Shown piece after piece: positions 12,912-21,263 of a stretch of 64,000 nt of DNA. Source of the DNA: Tabrizicola oligotrophica (GTDB taxonomy: Bacteria > Pseudomonadota > Alphaproteobacteria > Rhodobacterales > Rhodobacteraceae). The stretch lies in contig NZ_JAAIVJ010000003.1 in assembly GCF_011008935.1 (NCBI RefSeq), positions 248,001 to 312,000 of the forward strand, read 5' to 3'. The first letter of the stretch is position 1; every line of letters begins with the position of its first letter. The notes beneath the pieces were generated by a model. The model searched no databases. It had not been told where the DNA came from and was given only the letters and a program-made list of their open reading frames with translations. A program made the position numbers and the translations under genes.

Positions 12912-14642
12912 TCAAAGGGGCACAGGCATTTCCCCAAGGTCCAGATCGCGGATGGCCAGCGGAGTATCCTGTGCCTTCGCCAAGGTCCAGCCCAGAGGGG
13001 TTTCAAACGCCATCGCACGGCCCGAAAGCACGATCTGGCGCGCCGGGCGGGGCTTCAACCGGCCCTTTTGCAGATAGACAGAGGGTTCCAGCGCCAGGAT
13101 TGCCGCCGAATTGTGCCGGAACACCCAGATCTCGCCGCTTTTCAGGGCAATCGAAACCGCGGTGCCGCCCATGTCCAAAGTCGCATCGGCATCGGGGTGC
13201 AGGTGAAAGCGCAGGGCAAAGCCCACGCCCGACAGGCGACCCTCGGTCATCAGTCGCTCGAATCGCGCGTGCTGGGCCGGTGTGACGGCAATCAGATTGT
13301 CCTGCCCGACCAGTCGGCGACCATCCGACGACAAGGTCAGCGTCCGCAGGTGTGACAGACCGTGGGTCTTGGCCCAGCCATCATGGCTGGCTGAAAAGAA
13401 CGGCCCACCCTCGCCCGCGCCCAGCCGCAGGTGATGCACCTCGGCCCGGTCCGACAGCAATTCGGATCCCGGCTTGAACCGCGACGAGGAGAACCCCTCC
13501 AAGGCCAGCGTCGAGTGGCTGGGCGTCGCCCGACCGGCCAGCCGCCACTCCGGCCCGAACGGCACGCCCGAGCCGCAAGAGACGATCAGGGGCCGCCGCC
13601 CCGAGGTCAGTTCAAAGGCCAGGGTCGAGGCATGCGCCGACGTCCCTGCCCGCCCTTCGGGCGGCGCGGCGGCATCGACGATCACGCTGGTACGCCCGCC
13701 CTGCAACCGGGCAAAGCCCATGGCCAGCCCTTGCCCACCCGTCGCCGCGGGCTTCACCCCGGCTGCGGCCAGGGCCTGCTCCAGCCGCCCTTCCATGCCG
13801 CGCCCGCCGGAGTGGAACCGGGCCAGGCCGCCATCCGAATGCCGCAGCGCCCGCAAGGTCGGGGCAATCCGCTCGATTGCACCGACCAGCGGCTCGGGCG
13901 CGATGCGCCCCGCTTCGGCCAGCGCCTTCTCGGCCCAGGTCAGCAGCGTGAAGACCTCCAGCAGGTCTTCGGGATTGCGCGTCGGAATACCGCCCTGCCG
14001 ATCCACCTCGCGCCCGCATTCGGCGGCCAGTGCTGCGACCGCCGGCGTCACCAGCTTTTCCATGCCCGTCAGCGCCAGCCCGGCAATCACCAGCCCCACC
14101 AGCGCCTCAAACCGCGGCAAACCCGGTGCGGCCTGTTTCCAGCGCCATGACAGGAACACCGTCTGCGCCGTGACCTGCGCGTAATAGGCATCCGATTGCG
14201 CCTTGTCGCGCCCCATCAGAAGAAACAGCGCATGGTTGATCCAGCGGATCAGCCGTCGCCCGGTCAGGTCGGGCGACCATCCGGGGCCACGCCCGACGCC
14301 AAACCGCTCGATCCATTCCCAAAGCCAGCCCTGCGCCCGCACCCGCGCCTGCCCGTCCCCCGCCGCAGCCAAATCGTCCAGCCAGACAAAGCCATGCACA
14401 TCATCGGCCTGCCCCGGATCGGGCTGCGCAATGTCCCACAGGCTTCGGCCCTGCAATTCCACCAATTGCCCGCCGAACAACACGTTTCCGGCAATCATCT
14501 GCCGGCCCTTGGCGTAAAGCCCGATCGAGCGCGGTTCAGGCTGCGAGACAAACCCGCTGGCCGGTCGCGCCCGCAACGCACGCGAAACAGCCCAGCGATT
14601 GCCGAGACTGCCCTTCGCCGTCGGGGTCCTGCGCGATGCCAT
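12912..14642 (-). CDS. Heparinase II/III family protein
   Basis: About 576 residues. The N-terminal half is an alpha-toroid-like helical region ([33 protein letters not shown]). The C-terminal half is a beta-sandwich with [19 protein letters not shown] and [11 protein letters not shown], matching heparinase II/III proteins that cleave uronic-acid polysaccharides by beta-elimination. There is no signal peptide, so it appears cytoplasmic, which is odd for a polysaccharide lyase. Start is uncertain: ATG at 14642 or in-frame GTG at 14663. I recall it beside purH in many Rhodobacterales; its substrate is not known to me. Confidence 0.8.
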
Positions 14643-14764
14643 GGGGTGATCTGCTCTCGTCACTCGCCCGCTGACCGGGCCGTCTTTGGCCCAGTCTACC
14701 CAAGCCGGCCCGGCCTGTCACGCCAAAGCCGGGCGAAAACGCATCGCCCGGCGCAAGTGGCGCA

Positions 14765-17124: not shown

Positions 17125-18018
17125 ATGCGGCGCAGGATGATTTTTGCCCTGCCTCTGGCGCTGGGCACATGGGCCGCGGCAGCGTTCTGGCTTCGCCCGC
17201 CCCTCCGGCAGGCGCCGCGCCGGATGGACGCCCTGCCCCGGCCGAAAGGCCCGCTGAAAACCTTCCACTTGGGCCACAGCCTTGTGGGCCGCGACATGCC
17301 CGCCATGCTGGCCCAACTCGCGGGACATGGCTATCACAGCCAGCTGGGCTCGGGCGCCTCGCTTGCAGATCACTGGAACGGAACGGTCAAAGGCTTTGCC
17401 GAGGGAAATGCCCATCCTGCGCATCGCCCGGTGCGCGAGGCGCTGGAAAGCGGCGATTATGATGCGGTGATCTTCACCGAGATGGTCGAGCTGAAAGATG
17501 CCATCCGCTATCACGACAGCCCCGCCATGCTGGCCGAGTGGGCCAGTCTGGCGCGAAAGGCCCGCCCCGAGGTGCGGCTTTACCTTTACGAGACGTGGCA
17601 CCGGCTGGATGACCCCGCAGGCTGGTTGCAGCGCATCGATTCCGATCTTCGGGCGCTTTGGGAAGATCAGATCCTTGGCCCCGCCATCCTGCAGGCGGGT
17701 GACATTCGCATGATCCCCGCCGGGCAAGCCATGGGTGCCGCCGCCCGTGCGGCAGAGGCGGGACAATTGCCCGGCATCTCCGACCGCCACTCCTTTTTCA
17801 GCGATGACATTCACCTGAATGATCTGGGCAACTGGCTGGTGGCGATGACCCATTATGCAGTGCTTTACCACCGCGCCCCGATTGGCCTGCCCGCCCACCT
17901 GACCCGGGCCGATGGCATGCCCGCCACGCCGCCACCTGCTGATGCGGTTCGCCCCTTGCAGGAACTGGTCTGGCGGGTGGTGACAGGCTATCCTCTCGCC
18001 GGAATGTCAAAGGGATAG
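17125..18018 (+). CDS. SGNH/GDSL-fold hydrolase-like protein, membrane-anchored
   Basis: A 297-residue protein with an N-terminal signal anchor (MRRRMIFALPLALGTWAAAAF). Block I is HLGHSLVG with Ser52, a GxSL-type nucleophile motif. Block V is SDDIHLND with Asp227 and His230, the D-x-x-H pair of SGNH hydrolases. Start at 17125 is favoured over earlier in-frame ATGs by GGAGG six bases upstream. The domain is visibly related to the N-terminal domain of the next protein, which begins three bases after this stop, so the two arose by duplication. Likely an exported O-acyl-carbohydrate esterase or transferase; this is inference. Confidence 0.75.
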   Translation: MRRRMIFALPLALGTWAAAAFWLRPPLRQAPRRMDALPRPKGPLKTFHLGHSLVGRDMPAMLAQLAGHGYHSQLGSGASLADHWNGTVKGFAEGNAHPAHRPVREALESGDYDAVIFTEMVELKDAIRYHDSPAMLAEWASLARKARPEVRLYLYETWHRLDDPAGWLQRIDSDLRALWEDQILGPAILQAGDIRMIPAGQAMGAAARAAEAGQLPGISDRHSFFSDDIHLNDLGNWLVAMTHYAVLYHRAPIGLPAHLTRADGMPATPPPADAVRPLQELVWRVVTGYPLAGMSKG

Positions 18019-18021
18019 TCG

Positions 18022-20448
18022 ATGTCGGTGTTTTCCTTCCTTGCAGATGTGCTGATGGTCGGGCACAGCCTGTTCGGCGGCGACACCGCGGTTCTGACCG
18101 AATCCGCCCTGCGCGAGATGACCGGTCCATCGGTGGTGGAAACCCAGATCATCAACGGCGCCAGCCTTGCCTACAACTGGGAGAACTCTGCCAAGGCCGA
18201 GGGTGCCGACGCCCGCGCTCGCCTTGCGACCCGGCCCGCCGATGTGCTGATCCTGACCGAGGCGATTCCGGTTGCAGGCCATGTGCAGTGGTCCGACACC
18301 GCAGGGAATGTCGCCAGGTTTGCGGGCCTCGCCCGCGACGCCAACCCCGAGGTGCGGGTCTATCTCTTTGAAGGCTGGCCCAGCCGCGCCTCCGGCCCCG
18401 GTGCCGATGCCGCGGATGATCCCGATGCCAGCCTGCCTTGGCGGGAACGGCTGGTGAAAGACTTGCCGCTTTGGCAGGCCGCGGCTGGCGAAGGGGTAAA
18501 GGTCATCCCGGCCGGCCAGGCCTTGGCCCGGCTGGAGGACGAGACTGCCGCAGGCAGGGTGCCGGGCATCGACCGGCTTGACGATCTGTTTTCTGACGAC
18601 ATCCACCTGAACGGCAAGGGCCAGTATTTCATTGCCATGGTGATCGCAGGCGCCATCACCGGACAATCCCCCGAAGGCCTGCCCGCCCGGCTGACCCGGG
18701 CCTGGAGCAGCCGGGACGACTATCTTTCCGCCGCTCAGGCTGCGGCCCTGCAGCGGGTGGCGTGGCAAGCGGTGTCAGCCAGCGCTGCCGCAGCCCCGGC
18801 AAGCGCCGCGCCAAAGGCTGCACCCACACCGCAGAAGGATCCGCCCGCTCAGGTTCAGGCGCTGCCGATGGGCGCCTTCGCGCCTGTCACCAACCCCAAT
18901 CTCGCCTTGGGCCTTGCGGGCGTGACCGACTGGTCGGTGCAGCAACCTTTCCTTGACGTGATGAAAACCGCCCGGCCCTGGGTGGGACATCTGCCCGGCC
19001 AATGGGGCGGCTGGGGCCATGACGATCTTGCCGCCAAGGGCTATCTTGACGAAAACGGCTGGCCGAAGGCCCTGCCGCCGGACCTCTCCGGCATCACGAC
19101 GCTGATCCTGACCGACCTGCCCGAAGAGGCAGGCGGCGTTGCCGGGCGCTATCTGCTGACATGGGCGGGCAAGGGTACGCTCGTCCTTGAGGGCCGGGCG
19201 GTCGTGGCAGAGGCGCAGCCCGGGCGCATCCTGTTCGACTACACCCCCGGGGAAGGGGCGGTGTTGCTGACGGTGACTGCGATCGACCCCTCTGACCCGA
19301 TCCACGACATCGTGGTCGTGCGGCAGGACCGGGCCGAAGCCCTGGCGGCGGGGCAGATCTTCAACCCCGACTGGCTGGCACGCATCCGGGGGGTGACAGC
19401 CCTGCGCTTCATGGACTGGATGGCCACGAATGACAGCCCCCTGTCCCGCCGCTCCGATCGCCCCAAGCCCGCCGATTACACCTGGGCGCGTCAGGGCGTG
19501 CCGATGGAGGTGATGATCGCGCTGGCCAACGAGCTGAACGCCGACCCGTGGTTCACCCTGCCGCACCTGTCCGAAGATGCCTTGGTGCGGGACTGGGCCG
19601 AGCTTGCCCACAAGGATCTGAACCCCGGCCTTGTTGCGCATGTGGAATATTCCAACGAGGTCTGGAACTGGCAGTTCGCGCAGGCCAGGTGGGCCGAGGA
19701 ACAGGGCAAGGCGCTGTGGCACAAGGATGGCACATGGGTGCAGTTCTACGCCCGCCGCGCCGCCGAGGTGGCTGACATCTGGGCCGATGTGTTCAGGGAC
19801 GATCCCCGGCGGCTGATGCGGGTGATTGCCATGCAGACCGGCTGGCTGGGGCTTGAGGACCAGATCCTCGACGCCCCTCTTGTGGTGGCCGAAGGTCGCA
19901 AGGCCCCGGTCGCAAGCTTTGATGCCTATGCCGTAACCGGCTATTTCAGCGCCCTTTTGGGCGCGGATGACAAGGCGGCGCTGGTCAGGGGCTGGCTCGC
20001 GCAATCGCGCGACGCCGATCCCGCGCAGCCCTACCGGCTTGCCAATGAAATGGCCGCGAAGGAACTGCGCGACGGTTCGATTTCCGGCAACCGGGAAGAC
20101 ACGCTTGCCCGGCTCCTCGCCGAGCTTCTGCCCTATCACGCCGCCATCGCCGCCGACCGGGGGTTGAAACTGGTGATGTATGAAGGCGGCACGCATGTCG
20201 TGGGCTTTGGCGCGCAGATGGAAGACGCAGACCTGACCGCCTTCTTCGAACAGCTGAACTATGCACCGGAAATGGGAATGCTTTATGCAGAGCTTCTGGC
20301 GGGGTGGGGCCAGATCTCCGATCAACCTTTCAACGCCTTTGTCGATGTCTACGCCCCCGGCAAATGGGGCTCATGGGGCGCGCTGCGGCATCTGGGCGAT
20401 GATAACCCGCGCTGGCAGGTTCTGGCGAAAGGCTGCGCAAAGTGCTGA
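18022..20448 (+). CDS. Fused SGNH domain and clan GH-A-like glycoside hydrolase
   Basis: An 808-residue two-domain protein. Residues 1-250 are an SGNH-like domain: VGHSLFGG with Ser16 and SDDIHLNG with Asp192/His195. Residues about 252-290 are an Ala/Pro-rich linker. From about 290 onward a TIM-barrel-like domain carries EYSNEVWN, where Asn545-Glu546 would be the clan GH-A acid/base motif, and VMYEGGTH, where Glu721 would be the nucleophile. No clear signal peptide is visible. It overlaps the glycosyltransferase start (GTGCTGA at 20442-20448). Role in deacylating and trimming an exported polysaccharide is inferred; the exact GH family is not assigned. Confidence 0.65.
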   Translation: MSVFSFLADVLMVGHSLFGGDTAVLTESALREMTGPSVVETQIINGASLAYNWENSAKAEGADARARLATRPADVLILTEAIPVAGHVQWSDTAGNVARFAGLARDANPEVRVYLFEGWPSRASGPGADAADDPDASLPWRERLVKDLPLWQAAAGEGVKVIPAGQALARLEDETAAGRVPGIDRLDDLFSDDIHLNGKGQYFIAMVIAGAITGQSPEGLPARLTRAWSSRDDYLSAAQAAALQRVAWQAVSASAAAAPASAAPKAAPTPQKDPPAQVQALPMGAFAPVTNPNLALGLAGVTDWSVQQPFLDVMKTARPWVGHLPGQWGGWGHDDLAAKGYLDENGWPKALPPDLSGITTLILTDLPEEAGGVAGRYLLTWAGKGTLVLEGRAVVAEAQPGRILFDYTPGEGAVLLTVTAIDPSDPIHDIVVVRQDRAEALAAGQIFNPDWLARIRGVTALRFMDWMATNDSPLSRRSDRPKPADYTWARQGVPMEVMIALANELNADPWFTLPHLSEDALVRDWAELAHKDLNPGLVAHVEYSNEVWNWQFAQARWAEEQGKALWHKDGTWVQFYARRAAEVADIWADVFRDDPRRLMRVIAMQTGWLGLEDQILDAPLVVAEGRKAPVASFDAYAVTGYFSALLGADDKAALVRGWLAQSRDADPAQPYRLANEMAAKELRDGSISGNREDTLARLLAELLPYHAAIAADRGLKLVMYEGGTHVVGFGAQMEDADLTAFFEQLNYAPEMGMLYAELLAGWGQISDQPFNAFVDVYAPGKWGSWGALRHLGDDNPRWQVLAKGCAKC

Positions 20449-21263
20449 GCGTCATCATCCCCGCCTGCAATGAAGAGGGCTACATCGGCGCCTGCCTGAC
20501 GGCGCTGTTTGAAAGTCACGCCATCCCCGGCGGGGCCGAGGCGATTGTCGTGGCCAATGGCTGCCGCGACAACACCGCTGATCGTGCCCGCGCCATGGCA
20601 AATGCGGCCAGGGCGGCGGGTTGGGGGTTTCAGGTGCTGGATCTTGCCGAGGGCGGCAAGCCCAAGGCGCTGAACGCCGGCGACCGGGCAGCAAGCGGCG
20701 CGACGCGCGCCTATCTCGACGCCGATGTGATCGTTTCGCCAGCTGTGATGGCCGACCTAGCCCATGTGCTGAACGGTGACTCCCCCCTCTATGCCGGAGC
20801 CACTCCACGCATTCCGCGCGCGCGCAGCGCCATCACCCGCGCCTATGCCAGGTTCTGGCTGCGCCTGCCCTTTGCCCGAAGTGTAGCTCCGGGATATGGC
20901 CTGTTCGCCGTCAACGCCGCGGGACGCGCCCGTTGGGGCGAATTTCCCGCCATCATTTCGGATGACACTTTCGTCCGCCTGCAATTCACCCCTGCCGAGC
21001 GGGTGCAAGTCGCCAGCCTCTACGACTGGCCGATGATCGAAGGCTTCGCAGCCTTGGCCCGCGTGCGCCGCCGACAAGACGCGGGTGTGGCCGAGATCGA
21101 CCGGCTTTACCCCGGCCTGTCGGACCGCGACGGCAAGACCCCGCTGACCAAGATCAACCTCGCGAAGTTGGCACTACAAGATCCCGTCGGCTTTGCCACC
21201 TATGCCGCCGTCTCGCTGGCGGTGCGCCTTGGCGGGTCGGGCGGCTGGACGCGAGGACGCTAG
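20442..21263 (+). CDS. Family 2 glycosyltransferase
   Basis: A 273-residue GT-A fold enzyme. SVIIPACNEEGYIGACL opens the nucleotide-sugar domain, VVANGCRDNTAD follows, YLDADVIV holds the metal-binding DxD-type motif, and ISDDTFVRL is the acceptor-side acidic motif. It has a short hydrophobic region near the C-terminus but no multi-pass membrane domain, so it probably adds a single sugar to a membrane-linked acceptor. Start is GTG at 20442, overlapping the upstream gene by seven bases, which ties it to the SGNH/GH-like proteins. Donor and acceptor are unknown. Confidence 0.85.
   Translation: MLSVIIPACNEEGYIGACLTALFESHAIPGGAEAIVVANGCRDNTADRARAMANAARAAGWGFQVLDLAEGGKPKALNAGDRAASGATRAYLDADVIVSPAVMADLAHVLNGDSPLYAGATPRIPRARSAITRAYARFWLRLPFARSVAPGYGLFAVNAAGRARWGEFPAIISDDTFVRLQFTPAERVQVASLYDWPMIEGFAALARVRRRQDAGVAEIDRLYPGLSDRDGKTPLTKINLAKLALQDPVGFATYAAVSLAVRLGGSGGWTRGR

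Follow-up and report, generated by a model that had tools for sequence, protein, structure and literature searches.

A three-gene SGNH, GH-A and GT2 module as a probable part of a Rhodobacteraceae exopolysaccharide pathway that co-occurs with a PKS-NRPS pair

Three adjacent genes encode an SGNH protein (SGNH1), a second SGNH domain fused to a clan GH-A barrel (SGNH2-GH-A), and a GT2 glycosyltransferase. This module is reasonably likely to be the acyl-ester and glycosidase part of a conserved Rhodobacteraceae Wzx/Wzy exopolysaccharide pathway that is coupled to a PKS-NRPS. From genomic context and co-occurrence, the module very probably belongs to that pathway, which is widespread but unstudied in Rhodobacteraceae. 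The original prediction for this locus was a compact system for making, acylating or deacylating and trimming an exported glycan. That functional idea is right in outline. The surface-polysaccharide role and the coupling to GT2 are supported by context, but the three genes form one module of a larger pathway and are not self-contained. A stand-alone three-gene system was rejected on finding the partner genes elsewhere in the same genome.

Organization and predicted domains of the module

The locus comes from a 3.85 Mb Rhodobacteraceae genome in 62 contigs. The window is the whole stretch of DNA that was analysed, 64,000 nucleotides. Three co-directional, tightly packed genes were found at window positions 17125-21263. 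The stop codon of SGNH1 precedes the fusion gene's ATG by one codon, and the GTG start of GT2 (20442) lies inside the fusion gene, giving the predicted overlap a length of 7 bp. The features are as follows.

17125..18018, + strand: SGNH1, 297 aa, GHSL at S52, DDIHLN; N-terminal signal-anchor/signal peptide MRRRMIFALPLALGTWAAAAFWL and SGNH domain
18022..20448, + strand: SGNH2 and clan GH-A fusion, 808 aa, without signal peptide; kept full length in Rhodobacteraceae relatives
18022..18786, + strand: SGNH2 domain, residues 1-255; AF2 model, Foldseek match to DUF4886 protein 4i8i
18067..18069, + strand: Ser16, candidate SGNH nucleophile (GHSL), invariant in relatives
18595..18606, + strand: Asp192...His195, SGNH block V (DDIHLN), invariant in relatives
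18787..18876, + strand: Ala/Pro-rich linker, residues ~256-285, disordered in the AF2 model (pLDDT <50 at 258-276)
18877..20445, + strand: clan GH-A (beta/alpha)8 module, residues 286-808, eight barrel strands; Foldseek matches to GH10/GH51/GH53/GH5/GH2
19090..19323, + strand: beta-sandwich between barrel strands 1 and 2, residues 357-434, from the secondary structure of the AF2 models
19654..19659, + strand: Asn545-Glu546 (YSNEVWN), after barrel strand 4, candidate acid/base, invariant
20182..20184, + strand: Glu721 (MYEGG), on barrel strand 7, candidate nucleophile, invariant
20442..21263, + strand: GT2 glycosyltransferase, 273 aa, GTG start, PF00535 E 9e-17

An alanine dehydrogenase/PNT N-domain protein is encoded divergently upstream and an auxin-efflux-type carrier downstream; both genes are outside the module. 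About 3 kb upstream, beside purH, is a heparinase II/III-like gene (12912-14663, minus strand), separated from the module by two amino-acid-dehydrogenase-type genes. It is linked to the module in ~25 loci, mostly in the window's clade.

The expectation of two successive SGNH genes sharing GHSL and DDIHLN motifs held for these reading frames, and SGNH1 is 33-36% identical to the SGNH2 domain. An alignment of 53 relatives, whose identity to the window protein is 49-79%, shows residues S16, G46, D192 and H195 of the fusion to be invariant. SGNH1 is fixed at the same block I Ser and block V Asp and His positions. In a mixed alignment of both, the block II Gly is present in 100% of SGNH1 and 97% of SGNH2 sequences. 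The block III Asn of the oxyanion hole is a criterion for the SGNH superfamily (PMC9487903). The canonical Asn is absent from both SGNH1 and SGNH2, where Thr-Glu (T79-E80) is aligned instead; this block deviates in other SGNH families as well.

The SGNH2 model was compared with solved structures using Foldseek and matched many SGNH structures. The best match was the DUF4886 protein 4i8i (E 8.9e-9, TMt 0.69), and the GDSL acyltransferase SsfX3 (3skv) and PatB were also among the matches. Profile scores were under the cut-offs both for SGNH2 with PF13472 (30.3 bits, cut-off 32.9) and for SGNH1 with DUF4886, PF16227 (15.3 bits, Pfam gathering cut-off 26.7). The DUF4886 profile matched 1/53 fusion members, with an E value of 0.12. 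No DUF4886 member had a known function as of a 2022 review (PMC9487903). Judged by the modelled fold of SGNH2 and by blocks I, II and V in both, with the block III Asn as the exception, SGNH1 and SGNH2 are SGNH superfamily proteins. With Thr-Glu in place of Asn, the standard mechanism of hydrolysis cannot be taken for granted. The invariant Ser, Gly, Asp and His, the noncanonical block III and the DUF4886-like fold together make esterase or acyltransferase chemistry likely, though not assured. One SGNH-barrel protein (L114:8571-11243) has GNAA for GNSL, which replaces the nucleophile Ser, and its SGNH domain is apparently inactive.

An AlphaFold2 (AF2) model of the 808-residue fusion was built with 53 sequences. 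The model has a mean pLDDT of 90 and comprises the SGNH domain, a disordered linker and a second module, in agreement with the Ala/Pro linker (residues ~256-285) that had been proposed to join SGNH2 to a second domain. The C-terminal region had been expected to fold as a TIM barrel, and it does so when modelled alone (pLDDT 93, pTM 0.92). The eight barrel strands are at 294-297, 460-462, 508-513, 539-543, 598-603, 635-642, 716-724 and 770-772. The first of these precedes an insert, a seven-strand beta-sandwich of ~78 residues (357-434). N545-E546 follows strand 4 (539-543) and E721 is within strand 7 (716-724), which are the clan GH-A positions. All three residues, singled out in the original prediction, are invariant in the 53 relatives. 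A GCxxC motif at the C-terminus of the fusion is common in the alignment consensus of relatives.

Foldseek matched the barrel to GH10, GH51, GH53, GH5 and GH2 structures with E values of 5e-6 to 4e-3, ~6-14% identity and modest TM-scores. No Pfam or NCBIfam model covers the barrel, and the lone Pfam GH match in the 53 members was a chance match to GH76. No PDB chain was matched by sequence when the barrel-bearing protein or its profile was searched. The catalytic positions and fold matches, together with the empty sequence searches, therefore support the clan but not membership in a family. Clan GH-A membership of the modelled barrel is well supported. Judged by sequence against Pfam, NCBIfam and the PDB, the barrel appears to be an uncatalogued family, though it may have an entry in CAZy. 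It is quite likely to be an active GH-A glycosidase, with a predicted retaining activity.

Relatives and pathway context

Genome contigs were scanned for relatives, which generated 80 loci, nearly all from Rhodobacteraceae. The full-length fusion architecture was found in at least 75/80. Recurrence of the architecture and the invariant catalytic residues in 53 relatives indicate that the predicted SGNH and GH-A features are not chance. The three genes were expected to travel together. Among the 88 loci that span 12 kb or more, the barrel was accompanied by GT2 in 85, and SGNH1 was present in 68. The GT2 gene and the barrel hardly ever occur apart; SGNH1 and the SGNH2 domain of the fusion are dispensable parts.

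The variant architectures inspected keep the equivalents of N545, E546 and E721. A standalone barrel with its own signal peptide is located beside SGNH1 in some loci (L097-L105). Signal peptide-SGNH-barrel proteins, often with RTX repeats, adjoin GT4, GT2 and Wzx in others (L084, L106-L111), and both the standalone barrels and the SGNH-barrel-RTX relatives adjoin Wzx or Wzy. Fused and standalone forms are interleaved on the barrel tree, and the SGNH2 domain must therefore have been acquired or lost more than once. On that tree, the architectures assigned to L004, L012, L029, L037 and L049 are artefacts of frameshifts, truncation or motif search. Outside Rhodobacteraceae, clearly recognisable barrels were found in 3/289 alphaproteobacterial genomes sampled over the class, in two cases together with additional domains, for instance PA14 or cadherin-like/RTX. 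Two records named Exiguobacterium profundum and Nocardioides marinus (L045, L058) cluster inside Rhodobacteraceae and are likely mislabelled or contaminated. Two fusion matches contain internal stops, one TGA in G055:C1:2903197-2905716 and one TAG plus one TAA in G023:C15:172752-173630; each is a possible pseudogene or a run-on into neighbouring sequence.

In roseobacters with a single locus the gene order is PKS, GT2, NRPS, PPTase, [SGNH1, SGNH2-GH, GT2], GT4, Wzx, Wzz, kinase, sugar transferase. PKS, GT2b, NRPS, PPTase, GT4, Wzx, Wzz, kinase and sugar transferase all lie within ~10 kb in 31 loci. There the module is flanked by PKS/GT2b/NRPS/PPTase on one side and by GT4/Wzx/Wzz/ParA-like (BY-kinase-like)/sugar transferase on the other. 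Gemmobacter loci retain the Wzx/Wzz side alone. In the window's genome the pathway is divided over three loci, and the module's own neighbours are housekeeping genes. The second locus (C2:246-258 kb) contains GT2c, GT4, Wzx, three dTDP-sugar genes, a sugar transferase, Wzz, a kinase and GT2d. The third (C4:207-224 kb) contains NRPS, GT2b, PKS, a Wzy candidate, an AT3 acyltransferase and a WecG/TagA glycosyltransferase. The genes compared from these two loci are 36-71% identical to roseobacter or Gemmobacter genes adjoining the module, and PKS, GT2b and NRPS are 53-58% identical to Leisingera proteins.

Pfam matches were obtained for Wzx, Wzz, the sugar transferase and the glycosyltransferases of the pathway loci. 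The Wzy candidate scored 26.9 bits against a cut-off of 31.7, and it is conserved beside PKS or in barrel loci. With Wzx, Wzz, an initiating sugar transferase, glycosyltransferases and a Wzy candidate, this is a Wzx/Wzy-dependent exopolysaccharide pathway. An OafA-type AT3 acyltransferase gene (PF01757) lies beside the Wzy candidate at G000:C4:221707-222732 (L130:5708-6733), and its product is a possible acyl donor partner of the SGNH proteins. The AT3 gene was not found in the other loci compared.

The PKS has the domain order KS-AT-KR-DH-ACP-TE. The NRPS-like protein consists of a formyltransferase, an A domain with an inserted luciferase-like monooxygenase, and a PCP. The NRPS-like gene and the adjoining PKS (G000:C4:207070-216158, L126:5568-17638) occur in 57-58/150 Rhodobacteraceae genomes, and no report was found on the product of the conserved pair.

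Co-occurrence was examined in these 150 Rhodobacteraceae genomes, one per genus. Carriers numbered 56 for the barrel (leaving out G023, G084, G119 and G148, which have SGNH-only or broken matches), 58 for GT2, 59 for Wzx, 58 for NRPS and 57 for PKS. All five markers were present in 52/150 genomes and none in 84/150. Pairwise Fisher p values ranged from 1e-29 to 1e-41, with shared ancestry ignored. Three genomes (G078, G105, G106) have the barrel without PKS/NRPS. The markers are far apart and yet all kept in the window's own genome and in G034, G122, G136, G026, G037 and G072; on one contig of G034 the barrel is at 3.62 Mb, Wzx at 1.55 Mb and NRPS at 3.04 Mb. Retention of dispersed markers strengthens the argument from co-occurrence. 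An orphan roseobacter PKS-NRPS pair is thereby tied to exopolysaccharide synthesis, even where the genes are scattered.

Proposed role and site of action

The module probably acts on the glycan of its own pathway. In the cytoplasm, GT2 would extend the lipid-linked repeat unit by a sugar, after which Wzx would flip the unit and Wzy polymerise it, with Wzz and the kinase setting the length. Facing the periplasm, SGNH1 would transfer or remove an acyl ester on the glycan, and the SGNH2 domain of the fusion would carry out the same kind of ester chemistry. The acyl group may be acetyl or the product of the PKS-NRPS. The GH-A barrel may cut the same glycan by a retaining two-glutamate mechanism, with E546 as acid/base and E721 as nucleophile, and so trim, release or edit it. 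The PKS-NRPS may supply a substituent of the polymer. Attachment of its product to the polymer, a link drawn from co-occurrence, is put forward tentatively.

The main uncertainty in this scheme concerns the site of action of the fusion. In 75/76 fusion proteins 13 residues precede GHS, and in 64/76 these residues contain no K/R. A start held this close to GHS, in a stretch nearly free of basic residues, indicates that the fusion lacks a classical signal peptide. A longer start that would add one was ruled out by an in-frame stop one codon upstream in the window and by conservation of the start. The SGNH1 N-terminus, in contrast, has a hydrophobic segment behind basic residues that is kept in relatives, and in many roseobacters it includes a Tat-like RR. 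Export of the fusion by Tat 'hitchhiking' on SGNH1 was weighed as an option and found weak, since many SGNH1 N-termini of the window's clade are not Tat-like and 9 fusion loci are without an adjacent SGNH1. A leaderless fusion fits poorly with action on an exported polymer. For the fusion, the exported glycan of the original prediction is no more than a possible substrate; standalone barrels from the same pathway do have signal peptides.

The same observation leads to a different arrangement. Here the SGNH domains would work as acyltransferases, taking the PKS-NRPS product (or acetyl) from a carrier protein and attaching it to the sugar repeat unit; the leaderless fusion would stay in the cytoplasm, its barrel proofreading or trimming the lipid-linked unit before flipping. 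The barrel is almost always accompanied by PKS, NRPS and PPTase, SsfX3 and PatB are among the Foldseek matches of the SGNH domain, and the PKS terminates in ACP-TE and the NRPS in PCP, all of which suit this arrangement. We nevertheless consider it unlikely. Standalone barrels with signal peptides, from the same clade and locus, are interleaved with the fused forms, which argues for a shared extracytoplasmic site, and a PKS that carries its own TE may need no SGNH for product release.

It is improbable that the module is instead a catabolic carbohydrate esterase and glycosidase acting on an imported or environmental glycan. Across Rhodobacteraceae it goes together inseparably with a glycosyltransferase, Wzx and PKS-NRPS, neither a sugar transporter nor a TonB receptor was noticed in the conserved neighbourhood, and the fusion form is leaderless. 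These points outweigh three that favour catabolism: the SGNH and GH-A layout recalls degradative enzymes with two modules, relatives outside Rhodobacteraceae with PA14 or cadherin/RTX domains look like secreted degradative enzymes, and a heparinase II/III-like gene lies upstream. Still less probable is a barrel that no longer hydrolyses and instead binds or transglycosylates glycan as a scaffold, leaving SGNH1 or SGNH2 as the sole active enzyme: barrel activity is predicted and the beta-sandwich insert may bind glycan, but N545, E546 and E721 do not vary even among relatives as distant as 49% identity and persist in the variant architectures inspected.

Extending the preferred reading, action on the pathway's own polymer, to the family as a whole gives a more speculative picture. 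About one third of Rhodobacteraceae genera may make an exopolysaccharide with a polyketide/amino-acid substituent on the repeat unit, supplied by the dedicated PKS-NRPS. A new SGNH group would attach or remove the substituent, a new clan GH-A family would trim the glycan, and an SGNH domain would repeatedly replace the glycosidase signal peptide. If colonisers of surfaces and algae as important as the Rhodobacteraceae share a chemically unusual matrix polymer, this would matter for biofilms and for attachment to phytoplankton. The analysis also gives context to the DUF4886-like SGNH group and defines a GH-A barrel family beyond the coverage of the libraries used.

Comparison with known systems

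PelA (Pel) and PgaB (PNAG) are bifunctional deacetylase and glycoside hydrolase proteins of exopolysaccharide operons. Both are exported components of synthase-type systems, built from a CE4 deacetylase fold and a GH166 or GH153 barrel. The fusion resembles them in joining an esterase/deacetylase and a glycoside hydrolase in one protein of an exopolysaccharide biosynthesis system. It differs in combining SGNH with a GH-A barrel of no named family, in its Wzx/Wzy-type pathway and in lacking a signal peptide. No Pfam match to CE4, GH166 or GH153 domains was found in the fusion or its 53 members. PslG is the GH39 enzyme of the Psl pathway. Like the barrel, it is a clan GH-A enzyme encoded inside an exopolysaccharide biosynthesis locus, but it belongs to GH39 and has no SGNH domain, whereas the barrel has no sequence match to solved structures.

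DUF4886 provides the closest solved fold for SGNH2 (4i8i), and its profile match to SGNH1 is weak and sub-cut-off. PatB/OatA/AlgX-type O-acyltransferases likewise place an SGNH domain in a polysaccharide pathway, and an AT3 gene stands beside the Wzy candidate here. Those systems use a membrane acyl carrier, whereas here, among the loci compared, AT3 is in that of the window's own genome only and no MBOAT partner was noticed.

In Phaeobacter inhibens a PKS and an NRPS are one gene apart (Inhi_1972 and Inhi_1974), according to passages of PMC4062626 that draw no exopolysaccharide link for them. The spacing reported there fits the PKS-GT2b-NRPS order of the roseobacter loci, and judged by gene order rather than sequence they are probably the same cluster. 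No description of the SGNH-GH-A fusion, the barrel or the PKS-NRPS tie was found in the literature searched, which covers subscription journals thinly. The Wzx/Wzy pathway type is already known; what appears new is the fusion, the barrel outside named families and the association with PKS-NRPS.
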